The notes beneath the pieces were generated by a model, which made no database searches, was not told the DNA's origin, and worked only from the letters and a program-made list of their open reading frames with translations. A stretch of DNA of 21,394 nt from a virus. Positions 2,070-20,872 of the stretch are shown here, one piece after another. Numbering within the stretch: the stretch's first letter is position 1; each line of letters opens with the position of its first letter. Made by a program: the position numbers and the translations under genes. Location: positions 1 to 21,394 of IMG/VR virus record IMGVR_UViG_3300018079_000039. One strand, written 5' to 3'.

Positions 2070-2359
2070 CTAACATCCTGAAAATGATCGCCGACGATCC
2101 GAACCTCGATCCAGCGTTCGCCGCAGCGCTCGAACCTGAGCGCGTGTCCTGCCTGCCGGTAACCATTACACATGGCCGCCTGCCGCTATCCGGCTGCGGC
2201 ACCATAACCTACAGCGGCAAGGATCGGGATGCGGTCGAGGCTAAGGCCAAGACCGGGCAAGACCATATCGACTACATGCGCTCGCCGTCCCTATCGATGC
2301 CGTGCCGGCAGCCGGATGGAACATGGTTCGTCGTGTTGACATTTTTCGGAACGGACTGA
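2066..2359 (+). CDS. Hypothetical phage early protein
   Basis: 97 residues starting MTNILKMIADDPNLDPAFAA. A helical N-terminus precedes a segment rich in beta-forming residues (VSCLPVTITHGRLPLSGCG) and a final strand GTWFVVLTFFGTD. No family recognised. The ATG has GGAG six bases upstream and overlaps the preceding stop. Confidence 0.65.
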   Translation: MTNILKMIADDPNLDPAFAAALEPERVSCLPVTITHGRLPLSGCGTITYSGKDRDAVEAKAKTGQDHIDYMRSPSLSMPCRQPDGTWFVVLTFFGTD

Positions 2360-2362
2360 GCC

Positions 2363-2743
2363 ATGAGCATGTCCTATTATTACTTGCGTGCTCCATTCAC
2401 GTCGGTGCGTCTGGAACACATCGGCGAGCACGACAAAGTAACGCTTTGGGAGAATGGCGCCAATGCTGGAACGCTCACTTTGAGTAAAGGAGTCGGGCGG
2501 AAATTCCTCTACATGATGACTGATCATGTTGATGATTCGCAAGCTCCTATGCGAATTTATTGGGGCGACAGCGACAAAGGATGTGTCGTCACCGAAAATG
2601 TGCGTGGACTCGATCCAGATCTGATGCTCATCAGCGAATACGGCGAGCCTCTACGCGTCAGCGAGATTCGCGACCGCGCCGGCCATGTGCGCAAGGACAA
2701 GATGCCGGGGGAATTGTTCGGATACGATGAGGCGAAGCCATGA
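2363..2743 (+). CDS. Hypothetical phage early protein
   Basis: 126 residues starting MSMSYYYLRAPFTSVRLEHI. The composition is mixed and soluble, with a beta-rich N-terminal half (DKVTLWENGANAGTLTLSKG) and a charged C-terminus (RDRAGHVRKDKMPGEL). No transmembrane segment or known motif. It follows the preceding stop by three bases and overlaps the next gene by ATGA. Function unknown. Confidence 0.7.
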   Translation: MSMSYYYLRAPFTSVRLEHIGEHDKVTLWENGANAGTLTLSKGVGRKFLYMMTDHVDDSQAPMRIYWGDSDKGCVVTENVRGLDPDLMLISEYGEPLRVSEIRDRAGHVRKDKMPGELFGYDEAKP

Positions 2744-3015
2744 GCGTTGACTACAGAGATTTGCCATTGCACATGCAAGATGCCGCACGAGAATACGTTG
2801 AGCACGGGCAACCGCCTGGTGGCTTCTTCCGCTATGTTCTCGAAAATAGACTAGCCGAGGCTTGTAGACATGCCGATAACACTAACATCCATTACATGCG
2901 CGAGTGGGCCAACTGGCTATACGGAGAATGCCCAATACCAGCATGGGGATCGCCGGCAGAGGTTGACGAATGGATTAACAAACACGCAGCCAAGCGCGCA
3001 GAGGGAAAGCCATGA
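2740..3015 (+). CDS. Small phage protein of the 'YVEHGxPPGGF' type
   Basis: 91 residues. The pattern LPLHMQDAAREYVEHGQPPG, then FFRYVLENRLAEACRHAD and IPAWGSPAEVDEWINK, is one I recognise from many temperate phage early regions, where its role is unknown. Length and motif order are typical. GAGG eight bases upstream and ATGA overlaps at both ends support the start. Confidence 0.78.
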   Translation: MSVDYRDLPLHMQDAAREYVEHGQPPGGFFRYVLENRLAEACRHADNTNIHYMREWANWLYGECPIPAWGSPAEVDEWINKHAAKRAEGKP

Positions 3016-3260
3016 GATTTATCGATGACGGTGGGTCGGCTTTCCCTCAGCCGGGATGGATAGATAGTGACGGTAGTCATCACTTCCCAGCCGATGGATA
3101 CGGAATGGGCGGGATGACTTTGCGCGACTACTTTGCCGCGGCAGCACTAGCGCATCCGTCTACGCACGACCAACCGGCATATGACACGCCAACGGATCAC
3201 GCAGCAGCATGGGCCTACTCGGTTGCCGATGCGATGCTCGCCGAGCGATCTAAGCCATGA
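3012..3260 (+). CDS. Small phage protein, 'DGGxAFP...MTLRDYFAA...VADAMLAER' type
   Basis: 82 residues. The order of motifs FIDDGGSAFPQPG, GMTLRDYFAAAALA and AYSVADAMLAERSK is a familiar small phage protein with no assigned function. A GAGGG ribosome site lies six bases before the ATG. It is joined to its neighbours by ATGA overlaps on both sides. Nothing appears to be missing compared with the usual length. Confidence 0.8.
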   Translation: MRFIDDGGSAFPQPGWIDSDGSHHFPADGYGMGGMTLRDYFAAAALAHPSTHDQPAYDTPTDHAAAWAYSVADAMLAERSKP

Positions 3261-6798: not shown

Positions 6799-8328
6799 AT
6801 GAAATACCTTGACAAGCTCACGCCTGAGCAGGAAGCACGGATGCAGTCCTGGGCTGACGAATGGATTGCTACCGGGTTGCGTACTGGGTCAGCCGATCGA
6901 TCGACATTTGAACGTGCCGCCAAGAAGTGCTACGAGTATGCCGATATCAAGTGGCCGCGCAATGTTATTTGGGTAAGCTCGCCCATTGTGATGGCAATAG
7001 CTGCACCAGTTGCTGCTTTGTTGATTCAAGTCATGCGTAAGCACGACGCGGTGCGCGACGCGGTGGGCGACGCGGTGCACGACGCGGTGCGCGACGCGGT
7101 GGGCGACGCGGTGCACGACGCGGTGCGCGGCGCGGTGCACGACGCGGTGAGCGGCGCGGTGCACGACGCGGTGGGCGGCGCGGTGCACGACGCGGTGGGC
7201 GTCGCGGTGCACGACGCGGTGGGCGTCGCGGTGGACGACGCGGTGGGCGGCGCGGTGGACGGCGCGGTGCACGACGCGGTGCGCGTCGCGGTGGGCGGCG
7301 CGGTGCACGACGCGGTGGGCGGCGCGGTGCGCGACGCGGTGCGCGTCGCGGTGGGCGGCGCGGTGCGCGACGCGGTGGGCGTCGCGGTGGACGGCGCGGT
7401 GCGCGACGCGGTGGGCGTCGCGGTGCGCGACGCGGTGCGCGTCGCGGTGGGCGGCGCGGTGAGCGGCGCGGTGCGCGACGCGGTGGGCGTCGCGGTGGGC
7501 GGCGCGGTGCACGACGCGGTGGGCGTCGCGGTGGGCGGTGAAAAACAGATACATCATGCAGTCAAGGATGTTATCTGTCGCAGCTGGGCCAACTACATCG
7601 GCGGTCAATTCTGGCCAAGCGGCTGGTACTGTGGTGGCGCGTTCATGTCATTTTTCCGCGAAATCTGCTCGCTGGAACTCGCAGGCGACCTGTGGGAGCG
7701 TGGTCTCGCCTATGAAGATACGATCAAGTCAGCGTGTTGGTGGTACCCGCACCGCGACTTCGTCATAGTTTGCGAGCGGCCGGTATTTATCAAACTTGAA
7801 CTGGCCAATCCAGCCCGCCCGCACGGAATAGGTTCACATCGCTTGCACGGTGACGGTGGCCCGGCAATAGTTTGGCCGGATGGATGGGGCGTGTACGCAA
7901 CGCACGGTGTGCGTGTTCCGCCTTGGATCATCGAACAACCTGACGCAATAACAGTTCAGTTGATCAACAAGGAAACTAACACCGAAATACGCCGGATCAT
8001 GATCAAGTTGTACGGATATGCTAAATATCTGTCCGACGGTAATTTTGATCTGATCGAAGCGCGCGAGACAAATGATGCATTAGTCGGTCTGCGTGATTGC
8101 AAACTATGGAAGAGTAGCGACACAGTGCTGCTGGACATGCTCAACAGTACGCCTGAGCCTGATGGCTCGACAAAACGCTATGTGCTACCGGTTGATCCGC
8201 AAGCCTACAACGGCCGTGCATCGCGTGAATGTCTAGCGGCTATGGCTAGTACGTGGCGAAAACCATCGGACCCGACACAACTTTATTTTGCGTCGCCGGA
8301 GCACTATCGGCCGATGGTGGAATCGTAA
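6799..8328 (+). CDS. DUF6745-like protein with a 41-copy tetrapeptide repeat
   Basis: 509 residues. The N-terminus (LTPEQEARMQSWADEWIATG, then WVSSPIVMAIAAPVAALL) and the region after residue about 265 resemble DUF6745 proteins. Key parts are CWWYPHRDFVIVCERPVFIK, RLHGDGGPAIVWPDGWGVYA, THGVRVPPWIIEQPDAITVQ, a RRIMIKLYG segment, GKLW-like CKLWKSS and LLDMLNSTPEPDGSTKRYVL. Residues 82-245 are 41 copies of a four-residue unit, (H/R/G/S/D)(D/G/V)AV, which replaces the usual short linker in this type of protein. I know of DUF6745-like proteins with similar repeats mainly from actinobacteria and cyanobacteria, so its presence in a phage recombination operon is unusual. Molecular function is unknown. 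AGGGG six bases before the ATG supports the start. Confidence 0.75.
   Translation: MKYLDKLTPEQEARMQSWADEWIATGLRTGSADRSTFERAAKKCYEYADIKWPRNVIWVSSPIVMAIAAPVAALLIQVMRKHDAVRDAVGDAVHDAVRDAVGDAVHDAVRGAVHDAVSGAVHDAVGGAVHDAVGVAVHDAVGVAVDDAVGGAVDGAVHDAVRVAVGGAVHDAVGGAVRDAVRVAVGGAVRDAVGVAVDGAVRDAVGVAVRDAVRVAVGGAVSGAVRDAVGVAVGGAVHDAVGVAVGGEKQIHHAVKDVICRSWANYIGGQFWPSGWYCGGAFMSFFREICSLELAGDLWERGLAYEDTIKSACWWYPHRDFVIVCERPVFIKLELANPARPHGIGSHRLHGDGGPAIVWPDGWGVYATHGVRVPPWIIEQPDAITVQLINKETNTEIRRIMIKLYGYAKYLSDGNFDLIEARETNDALVGLRDCKLWKSSDTVLLDMLNSTPEPDGSTKRYVLPVDPQAYNGRASRECLAAMASTWRKPSDPTQLYFASPEHYRPMVES
7042..7533 (+). repeat. 12-bp tandem repeat, 41 units, in-frame
   Basis: 492 bp of perfectly phased 12-bp units of the form (cac/cgc/ggc/agc/gac)(gac/ggc/gtc)gcggtg, with a partial extra unit to about 7539. 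The gcggtg half never changes. The unit is four codons, so gain or loss of copies keeps the reading frame. The region is far more GC-rich than its flanks. Confidence 0.97.
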
Positions 8329-12370: not shown

Positions 12371-12450
12371 TCAATTCGGATCGTATTCCGCGGCCAAAGC
12401 GGCTGCCACATCCTTCTTGAAACGTCCTGAAATTTCCAGATTGATTTCAT
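12371..12450 (-). pseudogene. Possible small gene disrupted just after its start codon
   Basis: A perfect AAGGAGG is followed, after a four-base gap (AGTT), by ATG at 12448-12450. The frame from this ATG (MKSIWKFQDVSRRMWQPLWP) runs 56 codons and far into the next gene. The frame shifted by one base reads like a natural short protein: EINLEISGRFKKDVAAALAA then EYDPN and stop at 12371. One base lost right after the ATG would give MKINLEISGRFKKD. This is a judgement on protein-likeness only. Confidence 0.35.
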
Positions 12451-17007: not shown

Positions 17008-17750
17008 TCAACCACCGCAGTCAGGTCGAAACTCACATCAGCTTGCGCGGCCTGGTAGTGCGGCAAACGAAGATCATCGCCGGCCGTCACCAAATATGGT
17101 TCCGCGTCAACGCCGGCATTCCACTGCCAGCCGAACGGAGTCGCTCGCAGATGAGCACGCCACGCCGGCAGGAACGTTGCCCGAATCCAAGTCCAGGATG
17201 TGCGCCGGAATGTCACCGCTTGCGACCATTCGACGAACTGCGTCACCTTGCCGAGCGGCTGACCGTTCTCGTTCCGGTTCGTCCGCGTCACGCTTGATCT
17301 GGATAGCGGGTCAAAATCTACGCTGAGGAATCCGTCCGGCTCAAGCTTCACTCCGGCAGCAACAATCGCCAAGCTCGGCATTGTCGTCCCGGTTATCCTG
17401 ATCCGCCAGTACCGAAACGACGTTGATGTAAACGTTCGGGCGAATGCAGCGTTGCTTATTGGCGTCAATGTGTCAACAAGAACGTTCGATGCAGCAAAAT
17501 TATCCGTCGATCCGCGAAGCTCAATCGTCGCCGCCTGCGTGAACAGGTCGTGGCCGTAGACGAACCAGTAGTCGGCAGCCTGCGCAGTCAGGCAATCCAC
17601 CGTTACCGTAGCCGGCAAAGCAGTTGGCTTCCACCATGTGTACGGCCGCCAGTCCCATAGGTTATCCGCGTGAAACGGCAACGCCGCAGTCGTGCTCGCC
17701 GTCACGATGCCGTCGGTGAAATTGTTATCGTATAAGATGCGTGGCTTCAT
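17004..17750 (-). CDS. Minor tail (distal tail-like) protein
   Basis: 248 residues. The opening (RILYDNNFTDGIVTASTTAA, NLWDWRPYTWWKP) and the following strands (TVTVDCLTAQAADYWFVYGH, FRYWRIRITGTT) look like a jelly-roll with a discoidin-like module. The C-terminal half (FVEWSQAVTFRRTSWTWIRA) is also beta-rich. It is encoded right after the tape measure and overlaps the large tip gene by four bases, the place where distal tail or tip-initiating proteins are found. No closer family recognised. Confidence 0.65.
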   Translation of the reverse strand: MKPRILYDNNFTDGIVTASTTAALPFHADNLWDWRPYTWWKPTALPATVTVDCLTAQAADYWFVYGHDLFTQAATIELRGSTDNFAASNVLVDTLTPISNAAFARTFTSTSFRYWRIRITGTTMPSLAIVAAGVKLEPDGFLSVDFDPLSRSSVTRTNRNENGQPLGKVTQFVEWSQAVTFRRTSWTWIRATFLPAWRAHLRATPFGWQWNAGVDAEPYLVTAGDDLRLPHYQAAQADVSFDLTAVVE

Positions 17751-19597
17751 GATTGCGTCACCAGCAAATCTGCGCCATCACTAATAGCTTCGTTCAATAA
17801 CGGCAGAAGTTCATCCCGAATCTGGCGCGCAGAGAATGCGCTGCCGACCAGCGTCACGTTGATTGTCTGCCGTTGTCTTGCCGTTACGCTGGCATTGGCA
17901 GTCGGACTCGGTACGTCGAATCTTCCTTGCCCAGGTATTACAGGCACAGCACCGCCGGCCGCAGCACCGCCGCCAAACGACGTGGACCTGATTCTTTGCA
18001 CGTTCGCAAGTCCGGCCGCGATCGCAGCAGCAGCAGCGATGGCACCAAGTATGGGACCAACATAAGGAATGCCGGCCATCGCCGAGAACGCGGCCGTAGC
18101 CGACTTGTATGTGTTGATGACCGTCTCACCGATCGCCGCGGCCTTGCCGACTTCGAACATGCTGCGAGACTTGGAATTCATTAGTGCAGATAATTGATTC
18201 AGGAAAAATCCAGCCGAGTCAAAATCGAGTTTTCGATACAGGCGGTTTATCCCGAACCTGCGGCGGGCCTCTTCTTCTTCGATATCGAAGAGTCTTTGCT
18301 GATGATCCTGTTCGGCCTTTTCGCGCAAATCTTGAAACTCGCGCTCAGTGATTAGCTCATCCTCGCGGAACGCGATCAACGCAAACGATCGTTCTAGATA
18401 GGTGCGATTTTCAGTTTCAAGTTGCGTTTCGAGCGAGAACCGCAACGACTCAAGCCGAGCATCCTGTGAATCCTGGAATGCCTTCGACTCTCGCGCGATC
18501 CGCTCAAGTGTTTTCTGGGCTTCTTCTTCTGATCTTTTGAAGGCTTCTGTTGCTTTTTCTTCGGCATCATCAACCAGCTTAAGCCGGAATAACTCGCGCT
18601 TCAGTTCATCATCTCTTAGCTTGGCAAGCGCTTCTTGAGCTTTCTTCGCTTTTTCTGCGGCCTTCTCATCGATGATCGGGGCATCTACTCGGCCTTGATC
18701 GCCCCTATCCCGTCGAAGGAATGCTCTCGCCTGATCCTGAATCCGCGTGATAAGTGCCTCAGTTTCGCGAAGCTCTATATTCGCAGCCTGAATCATCTCC
18801 GGGTTGCGCTGGGTTTCGAGTTCCTTACGGAGGGAAGCGACACGCATTTGCAAACGCGCGAGAACTTTGTCGCTTGAATTCTCGGACTCACTGCCGCTGA
18901 TAGCGATGAATGAATTTACAATCGCAGCAGTCGCACCGCCTACGCTTAGCTTCAATTTCTCCCAGCTTGTTGAGAGTTTGTCTATTTCAGATTGGAGCTT
19001 GACCGCACTCTGAATTGCTTCTTCTGATACTCCGCCGAACTTAGTCAAACCTTCGCGGCCCTGATTTAGGAACGCCGTCATTCGCGCGCCGGCACGGCCG
19101 AACAGGTCTACAGCTAATGCATTCTTTGCGAGACCATCATTGAACGTGGAGAACCTATCAGCAACATCACCCAGAATCTGCTCCGTGTTACGCAGGTTGC
19201 CGCTTGAGTCCTTGAGCGATATTCCGAGCGCCTTGAACAAGGCGACCGCTTTCTCGTTACCTCCCGCCGCCTCGGCGATCTTGACGTTCAGCTTTGAGAT
19301 ACTCGTGGTGAACTGATTAGAATCTACGCCGGCAGCTCTAGCCGACAATTGAAACGCAGAAAGCGATGATGCCGCAACACCAATGCCTTGCGCAGCCTCA
19401 TCGAGATCATCAAGGGCATTGACGATATTAGTCAGACCGGAGATTATGGCGGCGCCGCCGATGACGGCACCGAACGCAGCACTCGCAGCGCCAAGCCCGC
19501 CGAACGAGCCAGCTAGACCAGCAAGGGATTTGTCGATCTGGCGAAAGACGCTTGAGGCGTTGTCTTCCGCGGTGATCTTGATCTTGGATTCAGCCAT
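17747..19597 (-). CDS. Tail tape measure protein
   Basis: 616 residues. The start (KIKITAEDNASSVFRQIDKS, then LGAASAAFGAVIGGAAIISG) and KFGG-type segments are typical of tape measures. The middle (about 270-450) is a long charged coiled coil (EKAKKAQEALAKLRDDELKR). A hydrophobic Ala/Gly-rich segment lies near residues 500-530 (GIPYVGPILGAIAAAAAIAA). The protein scaffolds tail tube assembly and sets its length, then takes part in DNA entry. It follows the chaperone frames with an eight-base overlap, the standard order. It is short for a tape measure, which suggests a fairly short tail. Confidence 0.88.
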   Translation of the reverse strand: MAESKIKITAEDNASSVFRQIDKSLAGLAGSFGGLGAASAAFGAVIGGAAIISGLTNIVNALDDLDEAAQGIGVAASSLSAFQLSARAAGVDSNQFTTSISKLNVKIAEAAGGNEKAVALFKALGISLKDSSGNLRNTEQILGDVADRFSTFNDGLAKNALAVDLFGRAGARMTAFLNQGREGLTKFGGVSEEAIQSAVKLQSEIDKLSTSWEKLKLSVGGATAAIVNSFIAISGSESENSSDKVLARLQMRVASLRKELETQRNPEMIQAANIELRETEALITRIQDQARAFLRRDRGDQGRVDAPIIDEKAAEKAKKAQEALAKLRDDELKRELFRLKLVDDAEEKATEAFKRSEEEAQKTLERIARESKAFQDSQDARLESLRFSLETQLETENRTYLERSFALIAFREDELITEREFQDLREKAEQDHQQRLFDIEEEEARRRFGINRLYRKLDFDSAGFFLNQLSALMNSKSRSMFEVGKAAAIGETVINTYKSATAAFSAMAGIPYVGPILGAIAAAAAIAAGLANVQRIRSTSFGGGAAAGGAVPVIPGQGRFDVPSPTANASVTARQRQTINVTLVGSAFSARQIRDELLPLLNEAISDGADLLVTQS

Positions 19598-20218
19598 CTT
19601 TCAGCACATCCCGCAGCGCGTACAGCCTCTCCAACATCAAGACTTCATCATCTACACCTTCGACCGCCATCAGATACAACACGTCAGGGAATCGAACCTC
19701 ACTCCCGAGCTTGTTCCAGATGTGGATCGCGGCTTCGTTTCCTCCGGTCAATGGTGGAAGGTGTTTTGTGTTGTCTCCGGGTTGGCAGAATCCCATCTTG
19801 ACCATGTTCGCCTCCTGCCGATCGGAGCGAACATGGTCCGTCAGTTTTTTATCTCGGCTTCCTTCTTCGACTTTCGTTCGTCGTACCGTCTCACCAACTC
19901 GCGAAACCCGTCGTCATAAAGCTCCGGCCATTTGTCGAACACGTACTCCACAAGCTCTGGCGCGAATGCCATCGGATCGGTCGGGAGATCATCTGCTAGA
20001 TGGCACATACGCACACCAGTCCATCCGACGATGGCTTGGTTCATTACCACCGGTTGAAGCCTGCCCATATCTAATGGCTCGCCCTTCGAATGCACTTGTC
20101 TCATAGCCTGCCGCATTTGCATCTCTGTCGGGATGCGAAGCTTCAAACCGATCTCGTCTTTCTCAAATGTGAATTCACGGCTTGCCTCAATCCTGAGTTT
20201 CAGTTCTGCCGCATCCAT
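19590..20218 (-). CDS. Tail assembly chaperone, frameshifted long form (G-T-like fusion)
   Basis: The first 125 codons are those of the short form. At A AAA AAC (19850-19844) the ribosome is expected to slip back one base and continue CTG ACG GAC..., a frame open from 19844 to TGA at 19590, adding 84 residues (TDHVRSDRQEANMVKMGFCQ to LRDVLKDG) for a total of about 209. This is the lambda G/G-T arrangement: the same gene order (tube, chaperone, tape measure), a slippery heptamer at the end of the first frame and a second frame without its own independent need for a start. An internal ATG at 19805 with AGGAGG could also make a 71-residue product alone. Long and short forms would together load tube subunits on the tape measure. 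Confidence 0.8.
19800..19850 (-). promoter_or_regulatory. Programmed -1 frameshift signal: slippery heptamer and hairpin
   Basis: A AAA AAC at 19850-19844 is a canonical -1 slippery heptamer in the correct phase (codons ATA AAA AAC), directly before TGA. After a five-base spacer (TGACG) a perfect 12-bp stem forms between GACCATGTTCGC (19838-19827) and GCGAACATGGTC (19811-19800), with a 15-base loop. The loop's 3' end and stem hold the AGGAGG and ATG (19805) of a possible internal start. Confidence 0.85.
19841..20218 (-). CDS. Tail assembly chaperone, short form (G-like)
   Basis: 125 residues: MDAAELKLRIEASREFTFEK, an alpha-helical body (MQMRQAMRQVHSKG; FAPELVEYVFDKWPELYDDG), ending in charged KSKKEAEIKN. 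It lies between the tube and tape measure genes, as lambda G does. The ATG at 20218 follows AAGG, and the TGA at 19841-19843 comes directly after the slippery site. Sequence similarity to lambda G is not claimed; identity rests on position, size and frameshift. Confidence 0.8.
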   Translation of the reverse strand: MDAAELKLRIEASREFTFEKDEIGLKLRIPTEMQMRQAMRQVHSKGEPLDMGRLQPVVMNQAIVGWTGVRMCHLADDLPTDPMAFAPELVEYVFDKWPELYDDGFRELVRRYDERKSKKEAEIKN

Positions 20219-20224
20219 AAATCC

Positions 20225-20872
20225 TTAATAGCGCGTCACGAGATTAGCGAGAGTAAATGTGAGGTTTGTAGTCAGCGGAGAATTCAATGCAATCGTCGGC
20301 GTGCGCTGGATCGCCCAGTACCCGGTTCCGTAGATAATCGATCCGCTCGGCAAGGTAAATCGAATTGCCATTAGGGCTTTGGCATCGGACGCAGTAGTGA
20401 CCACGGCCACGTAGCCTTGCGTTGTGTCATCGAGCATTGTGAATGTGAACGTTGACGGACTCTCGACGGTCGGAATCTGCTTCTGGATCACGTCTTCCAG
20501 CGTCGTCACATCGGCGAACTGAGTCTCGCCACCGGCGAACGCAACCTCACGGATGCCATTCAGGCTTACCCACGTTGATATTTCTCTCACCGATCCAGTA
20601 CCTTGGCCAGCCGGGAAAAACGTTGTCGAAGTCGTGTTGATGTCATCGAAGGTCACGTCATTGGTCGCGACCGCCGAAGCTCGAACAACTCGTTTGTCGA
20701 GACGCCCCCATCCGGATATGACTTCGAGAATGTCGTTGACAACAACGCCGTGCGAAGCTTCAAGCGTGGCGACCGCCTCGGTTGCATTCGAGATCGCCGT
20801 CATGCTCTTGACAGCGGCGTACACGGAAGCAACTGCAACTGATGTGCCGGTGGATAGCGTTACGGTTGCCAT
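20225..20872 (-). CDS. Major tail tube protein
   Basis: 215 residues. The sequence (VYAAVKSMTAISNATEAVAT, ILEVISGWGRLDKRVVRAS, DVTFDDINTTSTTFFPAGQG, GSVREISTWVSLNGI, GGETQFADVTTLEDVIQKQI, VTTASDAKALMAIRFTLPSG, GYWAIQRTPTIALNSPLTTN) is a well-known tube type of lambda-like siphophages. The protein forms the stacked hexameric rings of the tail tube. Location between the terminator and chaperone genes agrees. A GGA lies before the ATG at 20872. Confidence 0.88.
   Translation of the reverse strand: MATVTLSTGTSVAVASVYAAVKSMTAISNATEAVATLEASHGVVVNDILEVISGWGRLDKRVVRASAVATNDVTFDDINTTSTTFFPAGQGTGSVREISTWVSLNGIREVAFAGGETQFADVTTLEDVIQKQIPTVESPSTFTFTMLDDTTQGYVAVVTTASDAKALMAIRFTLPSGSIIYGTGYWAIQRTPTIALNSPLTTNLTFTLANLVTRY

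Follow-up and report, generated by a model that had tools for sequence, protein, structure and literature searches.

A candidate lambda G/GT-type -1 frameshift signal with a co-varying hairpin in a divergent phage tail chaperone gene

Phage lambda makes its tail assembly proteins gpG and gpGT through -1 slippage. The binding partner of G is the tape measure protein, and that of T is the tail tube protein (PMC5009743). This G/GT arrangement is widely conserved (PMC5009743). The structures that stimulate such slippage generally begin 5-8 nt after the slippery heptamer, and in prokaryotes they are not always found (PMC4066793).

The locus described here lies in a virus record of 21,394 nucleotides (IMGVR_UViG_3300018079_000039). 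We analysed its whole length, called the window below. This 21.4-kb record is probably a fragment. The window resembles lambda in its gene order, in a -1 slip site near the 3' end of G, and in a chaperone with its G-T extension before the tape measure gene. In contrast with lambda, the slip site reads A AAA AAC, a hairpin that is conserved and co-varies stands 5 nt downstream, and the G sequence matches none of the Pfam models searched. The Phage_TAC_4 loci (PF08748) of the Pseudomonas and Vibrio siphophages AH14a, AUS531phi, PS-1 and Vaitephage are a second point of comparison. They share with the window the tail-tube family upstream and the position of the gene. Likewise, they have an in-phase G GGA AAC or A AAA AAC, a T reading frame in -1 and, in most, the tape measure gene downstream. 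However, the G and T of the window belong to a different sequence class, and comparing their profiles with Phage_TAC_4 gave no significant result (probability 5% and 9%). PF08748 is matched by all 14 members of the sister class, whereas at E 0.01 neither the window nor any of the 23 members of its own class matched it, the gathering score not being reached.

Gene order and candidate slip site in the tail module

The minus strand of the window carries a siphophage-like tail module, which runs from the tail terminator through the tail tube, ORF1 and the -1 frame to the tape measure. Its features are the following:

21325-20882, minus strand: tail terminator, the gene upstream of the tail tube gene
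20225..20872, minus strand: major tail (tube) protein (PF08813, E 2.7e-48), upstream neighbour of ORF1
19841..20218, minus strand: ORF1, predicted G-like tail assembly chaperone of 125 aa (AlphaFold, VIA-align 2, BFVD, weak PHROG 313 match)
19844..19850, minus strand: slippery sequence A AAA AAC, a heptamer in the reading phase of ORF1 and abutting its TGA (19843-19841)
19800..19838, minus strand: putative stimulatory hairpin, a 12-bp stem (19838-19827 with 19811-19800) with inner pairs (19826-19824 with 19815-19813)
19803..19816, minus strand: AGGAGG-CGAAC-ATG, located in the hairpin's 3' half; candidate internal start that would give a 71-aa product (19805-19590)
19590..19850, minus strand: -1 frame (T-like domain), closed by the TGA stop at 19592-19590; 86 codons when counted from the heptamer
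17747..19597, minus strand: tape measure protein (PHROG 9483, E 3e-56)

ORF1 is thus placed between the major tail protein gene and the tape measure gene, which is the lambda G/GT-type order. It ends in GAG ATA AAA AAC TGA, which puts the A AAA AAC heptamer in phase. Between heptamer and stem lies the spacer TGACG. These 5 nt fit the published range of 5-8 nt (PMC4066793) and were counted in favour of frameshifting. The arms of the stem, GACCATGTTCGC and GCGAACATGGTC, are 100% complementary over 12 bp and are separated by 15 nt. Among four short inverted repeats in the window, this stem is the only perfect one. The predicted fold of the RNA has -28.6 kcal/mol, compared with -16.5 +/- 2.8 in shuffled sequences (z -4.3), and 0 of 200 shuffles were as stable. 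The first-pass annotation had listed the in-phase heptamer, the TGA, the 5-nt spacer, the perfect 12-bp stem and a -1 frame open to 19590. Every one of them is present, and the reading frames agree with its product lengths of 125, 209 and 71 residues, the fusion being 125 + 84 aa.

The heptamer by itself is weak evidence, as 5 copies of AAAAAAC lie in the window and 2.1 would be expected. The combination of heptamer, hairpin and -1 frame, together with its conservation, far exceeds chance.

From the sequences and the predicted models, we consider it very probable that a tail assembly chaperone gene is read here through a programmed -1 ribosomal frameshift of the lambda G/GT type. The majority of ribosomes would terminate at the TGA at 19841 and release the 125-residue G-like chaperone. 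A minority would move back by one base on the A AAA AAC heptamer, aided by the hairpin that begins 5 nt further on, and continue into the 209-residue G-T fusion. In line with lambda, G may coat the tape measure protein and T may recruit the tail tube protein. What the sequences and models show is the signal, its conservation and the chaperone-like fold, and from these we infer the slippage, its rate and the assembly roles of G and G-T.

At its other end, the T frame runs into the tape measure gene. At 19597-19590, minus strand, the stop of the T frame and the ATG of the tape measure gene overlap (ATGGCTGA). This ATG has only a weak Shine-Dalgarno sequence. A similar overlap, or a very close spacing, is seen in several relatives, which suggests translational coupling.

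Heptamer and stem among related loci

ORF1 has diverged too far to be searched for directly, so the tail tube protein was taken as the anchor of the survey. A tblastn search of ORF1 against named phages, with queries from the window and three relatives (L004, L007 and L158), gave no match, and an ORF1 profile search of 369 genomes found nothing. Searching by gene order in 399 genomes recovered two prophage-like loci, L158 and L159. In a script-filtered pattern scan for the heptamer with GACCATGT, the only tail-chaperone sites were those of the window, a near-identical copy and L007. With the tail tube anchor, 552 viral-contig stretches matched, 374 were confirmed and 80 were fetched. A locus was scored positive when the gene after the tail tube had a heptamer in phase, with a -1 frame extending 50 codons or more beyond its stop.

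This gave 86 positive loci, with the window, prophage-like loci and named phages among them; a large number are near-identical. They span several sequence classes, and PS-1, phiPMW, AH14a, AUS531phi and Vaitephage are among the named phages. The heptamer is AAAAAAC in 40 loci, GGGAAAC in 27, AAAAAAA in 15, CCCAAAG in 2 and AAAAAAG in 2. An in-phase X XXY YYZ heptamer with a downstream -1 frame is present at all loci with a recognisable chaperone and sufficient downstream DNA. In the loci without a call, either the contig ends too early (here L185 and L216 still have an in-phase heptamer) or the chaperone is not recognisable. The latter are L181 and L184, where no recognisable chaperone adjoins the tail tube gene.

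Two further observations concern these loci. L184 has, in the usual position of the chaperone, a 280-codon ORF with HNH-endonuclease-like features (2214-3056), possibly a homing endonuclease insertion. The in-phase heptamer is C CCA AAG in L208 and L209, and A AAA AAA in L183/L191-like and L204-like loci. Each of these has a distinct T sequence, so the slip motif seems to have changed within one tail-tube family.

For the hairpin, we compared the class of the window itself, which has a T of 80-96 codons. Its 23 non-redundant members were aligned gap-free from the heptamer. Pairing in one register (column i with 64-i, positions 13-23) reaches 66.4%, against 27.3-45.5% in the other registers tested. 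When whole 3' arms were swapped among the sequences, the observed pairing was reached in 0 of 5000 trials, in a control that ignores the tree, so that shared ancestry remains. With the window and its two nearest relatives omitted, it was reached in 47 of 5000 by the same tree-blind control. Five sequences have 7 of 11 pairs changed on both sides with pairing retained; their covariation score is 0.709, compared with 0.298 in shuffles that ignore the tree (0 of 500).

The sequence of the stem differs among members. It is of the form CATGT.../...ACATG in the window, L007 and L211, of the GCGCGCATC/GATGCGCGC type in L186, L217 and L229, and GCGTCTCAC/GTGAGGCGC in L158. About seven of the 23 members show a weak stem or none in the shared register. 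L008, L177, L230, L242 and L244 have no good stem there, so the stem is common and not universal. The single register and the changes on both sides with pairing retained indicate that the structure of the hairpin is under selection. Both its distance from the heptamer, within 5-8 nt, and its compensatory conservation are those of a stimulatory 3' structure. Two checks had been proposed for this locus. Co-variation of the stem was found, as compensatory changes in the same register. Relatives that keep both proteins and lack the heptamer were looked for in the survey, and none was found.

Predicted chaperone and T domain

The AlphaFold model of ORF1 has a pLDDT of 95. With VIA-align 2, the best solved folds are YqbN (3KLU, Z 6.6) and RBSTP2171 (3FGX, 6.2). 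They are followed, each at Z 5.3, by ORF19 of a PICI-like element (5IR0) and the tail assembly chaperone of HK97 (2OB9), and the next row drops to Z 2.8. The likeness to HK97 2OB9 and YqbN 3KLU extends over 91-96 residues, although sequence identity is about 10%. In BFVD, the best named matches of ORF1 are mostly tape measure or tail assembly chaperones and tail proteins. Foldseek returned no match of the model in the PDB under E 0.001. Because the Z values are middling and Foldseek found no significant PDB match, the evidence for a chaperone-like fold in the ORF1 model is supportive rather than proof.

ORF1 of the window had no match in Pfam, and its match to PHROG 313 ('Tail assembly chaperone') was weak (E 0.015). 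For the 23 class members, the G sequences matched nothing in Pfam and PHROGs at E 0.01, and the T sequences nothing in PHROGs at the same threshold. Judged from these sequences, the locus is a known kind of phage device, and its G/T family lies outside the models of Pfam (G) and PHROGs (G and T).

The T domain is conserved as a protein in the 23 relatives. Its alignment begins at the heptamer, upstream of the putative internal start. It has a conserved K-L, and then a helix (residues 2-18 of the T model). The core W...GGW.PERWPVY is found in most members and is kept only in part by the window. ORF1 ends in a long helix (residues 98-124), so the G-T fusion probably joins this C-terminal helix to that of T. 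In close pairs, which are not independent, the -1 frame shows 75, 39 and 122 changes at codon positions 1, 2 and 3. Over the whole frame, this direction fits selection; the first 20 codons have too few changes.

If this reading holds, frameshifting in tail chaperone genes, with a 3' hairpin that is selected and co-varies, would extend to a family that the Pfam and PHROGs models do not detect. Annotators could then join G and T correctly in such phages. The covariation of the stem would also offer a natural series for measuring stem strength against the ratio of G to G-T.

Rival readings and the ATG inside the hairpin

The gene order, the conserved heptamer with its -1 frame, the co-varying stem and the predicted fold all strongly back the -1 frameshift proposed in the first-pass annotation. 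We weighed three other readings against it. ORF1 and T might be separate genes, with T made only from its own start and the heptamer and hairpin incidental. Some public records do annotate T as its own CDS with an internal start. Nevertheless, this is very improbable given the in-phase heptamer at every locus where the chaperone is recognisable and the sequence long enough. The -1 frame is also conserved as protein back to the heptamer, and a good internal start near the beginning of T is absent in most of the 23 relatives. Even less credible is a hairpin that acts as a transcription terminator or attenuator and not as a frameshift stimulator. A stable stem between two reading frames would suit it, but the spacing from heptamer to stem is fixed while the sequence varies, and the tape measure gene further downstream is part of the same tail module. 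The terminator was rejected because no T run follows the stem.

The third reading gives the hairpin two uses. Besides stimulating slippage, it would hide the AGGAGG and the ATG at 19805, and a termination-coupled start would produce a free 71-residue T domain. Ribosomes ending at the TGA at 19841 would melt most of the stem and so permit coupled initiation. In IS911 orfA/orfB, the frameshift stimulator likewise has a frameshift-independent role (PMC5009743). There the second role is experimentally supported; in the window, on the other hand, the putative start is part of the downstream stem and lacks conservation. The AGGAGG lies at 19816-19811 and the ATG at 19805-19803, in the -1 frame. Its Shine-Dalgarno is strong (-9.6 kcal/mol), one of only four of such strength among 190 ATGs on 11 kb of the minus strand. 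A ribosome terminating at 19841 leaves only about -9 of the -25 kcal/mol of the stem, so that coupled reinitiation is physically possible. The ATG is also present in L007 (=L226) and L211, the two distinct relatives closest to the window.

However, an ATG at T codon 15 occurs in just 3 of the 23 non-redundant relatives. The Shine-Dalgarno weakens to -5.2 in L007 and almost disappears in L211 (-1.6), so it is strong in the window alone. Several relatives retain the stem and encode Ala at codon 15. L188 and L198 have a GGAGGC-like sequence with no ATG, as expected from Glu-Ala codons. Moreover, the ATG is fully paired in the free hairpin, and the 71-residue product would lack the greater part of the linker helix (T model, residues 2-18). 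The AGGAGG and ATG stand, then, as sequence inside the hairpin, whereas the comparison gives no support to a conserved function as internal start, the stem being kept with neither. We regard the two uses as unlikely. With the ATG rare, the Shine-Dalgarno fading and the stem kept with Ala, the motif is probably a by-product of coding Gln-Glu-Ala-Asn-Met within a stem-forming sequence. If the second use were real in this phage and its nearest relatives, one RNA element would set three chaperone products (G, G-T and T).

Two other minus-strand ATGs with a strong Shine-Dalgarno lie at 12450 and 12346. Each may be the start of a short, unlisted gene that lies downstream of the tail region. Elsewhere in the window, a run of repeats of about 12 nt (GCGGTG + 6 nt) extends over 7046-7540 on the plus strand, inside the ORF at 6799-8328. 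It encodes D/G-A-V-x units, and the GC content is locally higher there (68%).
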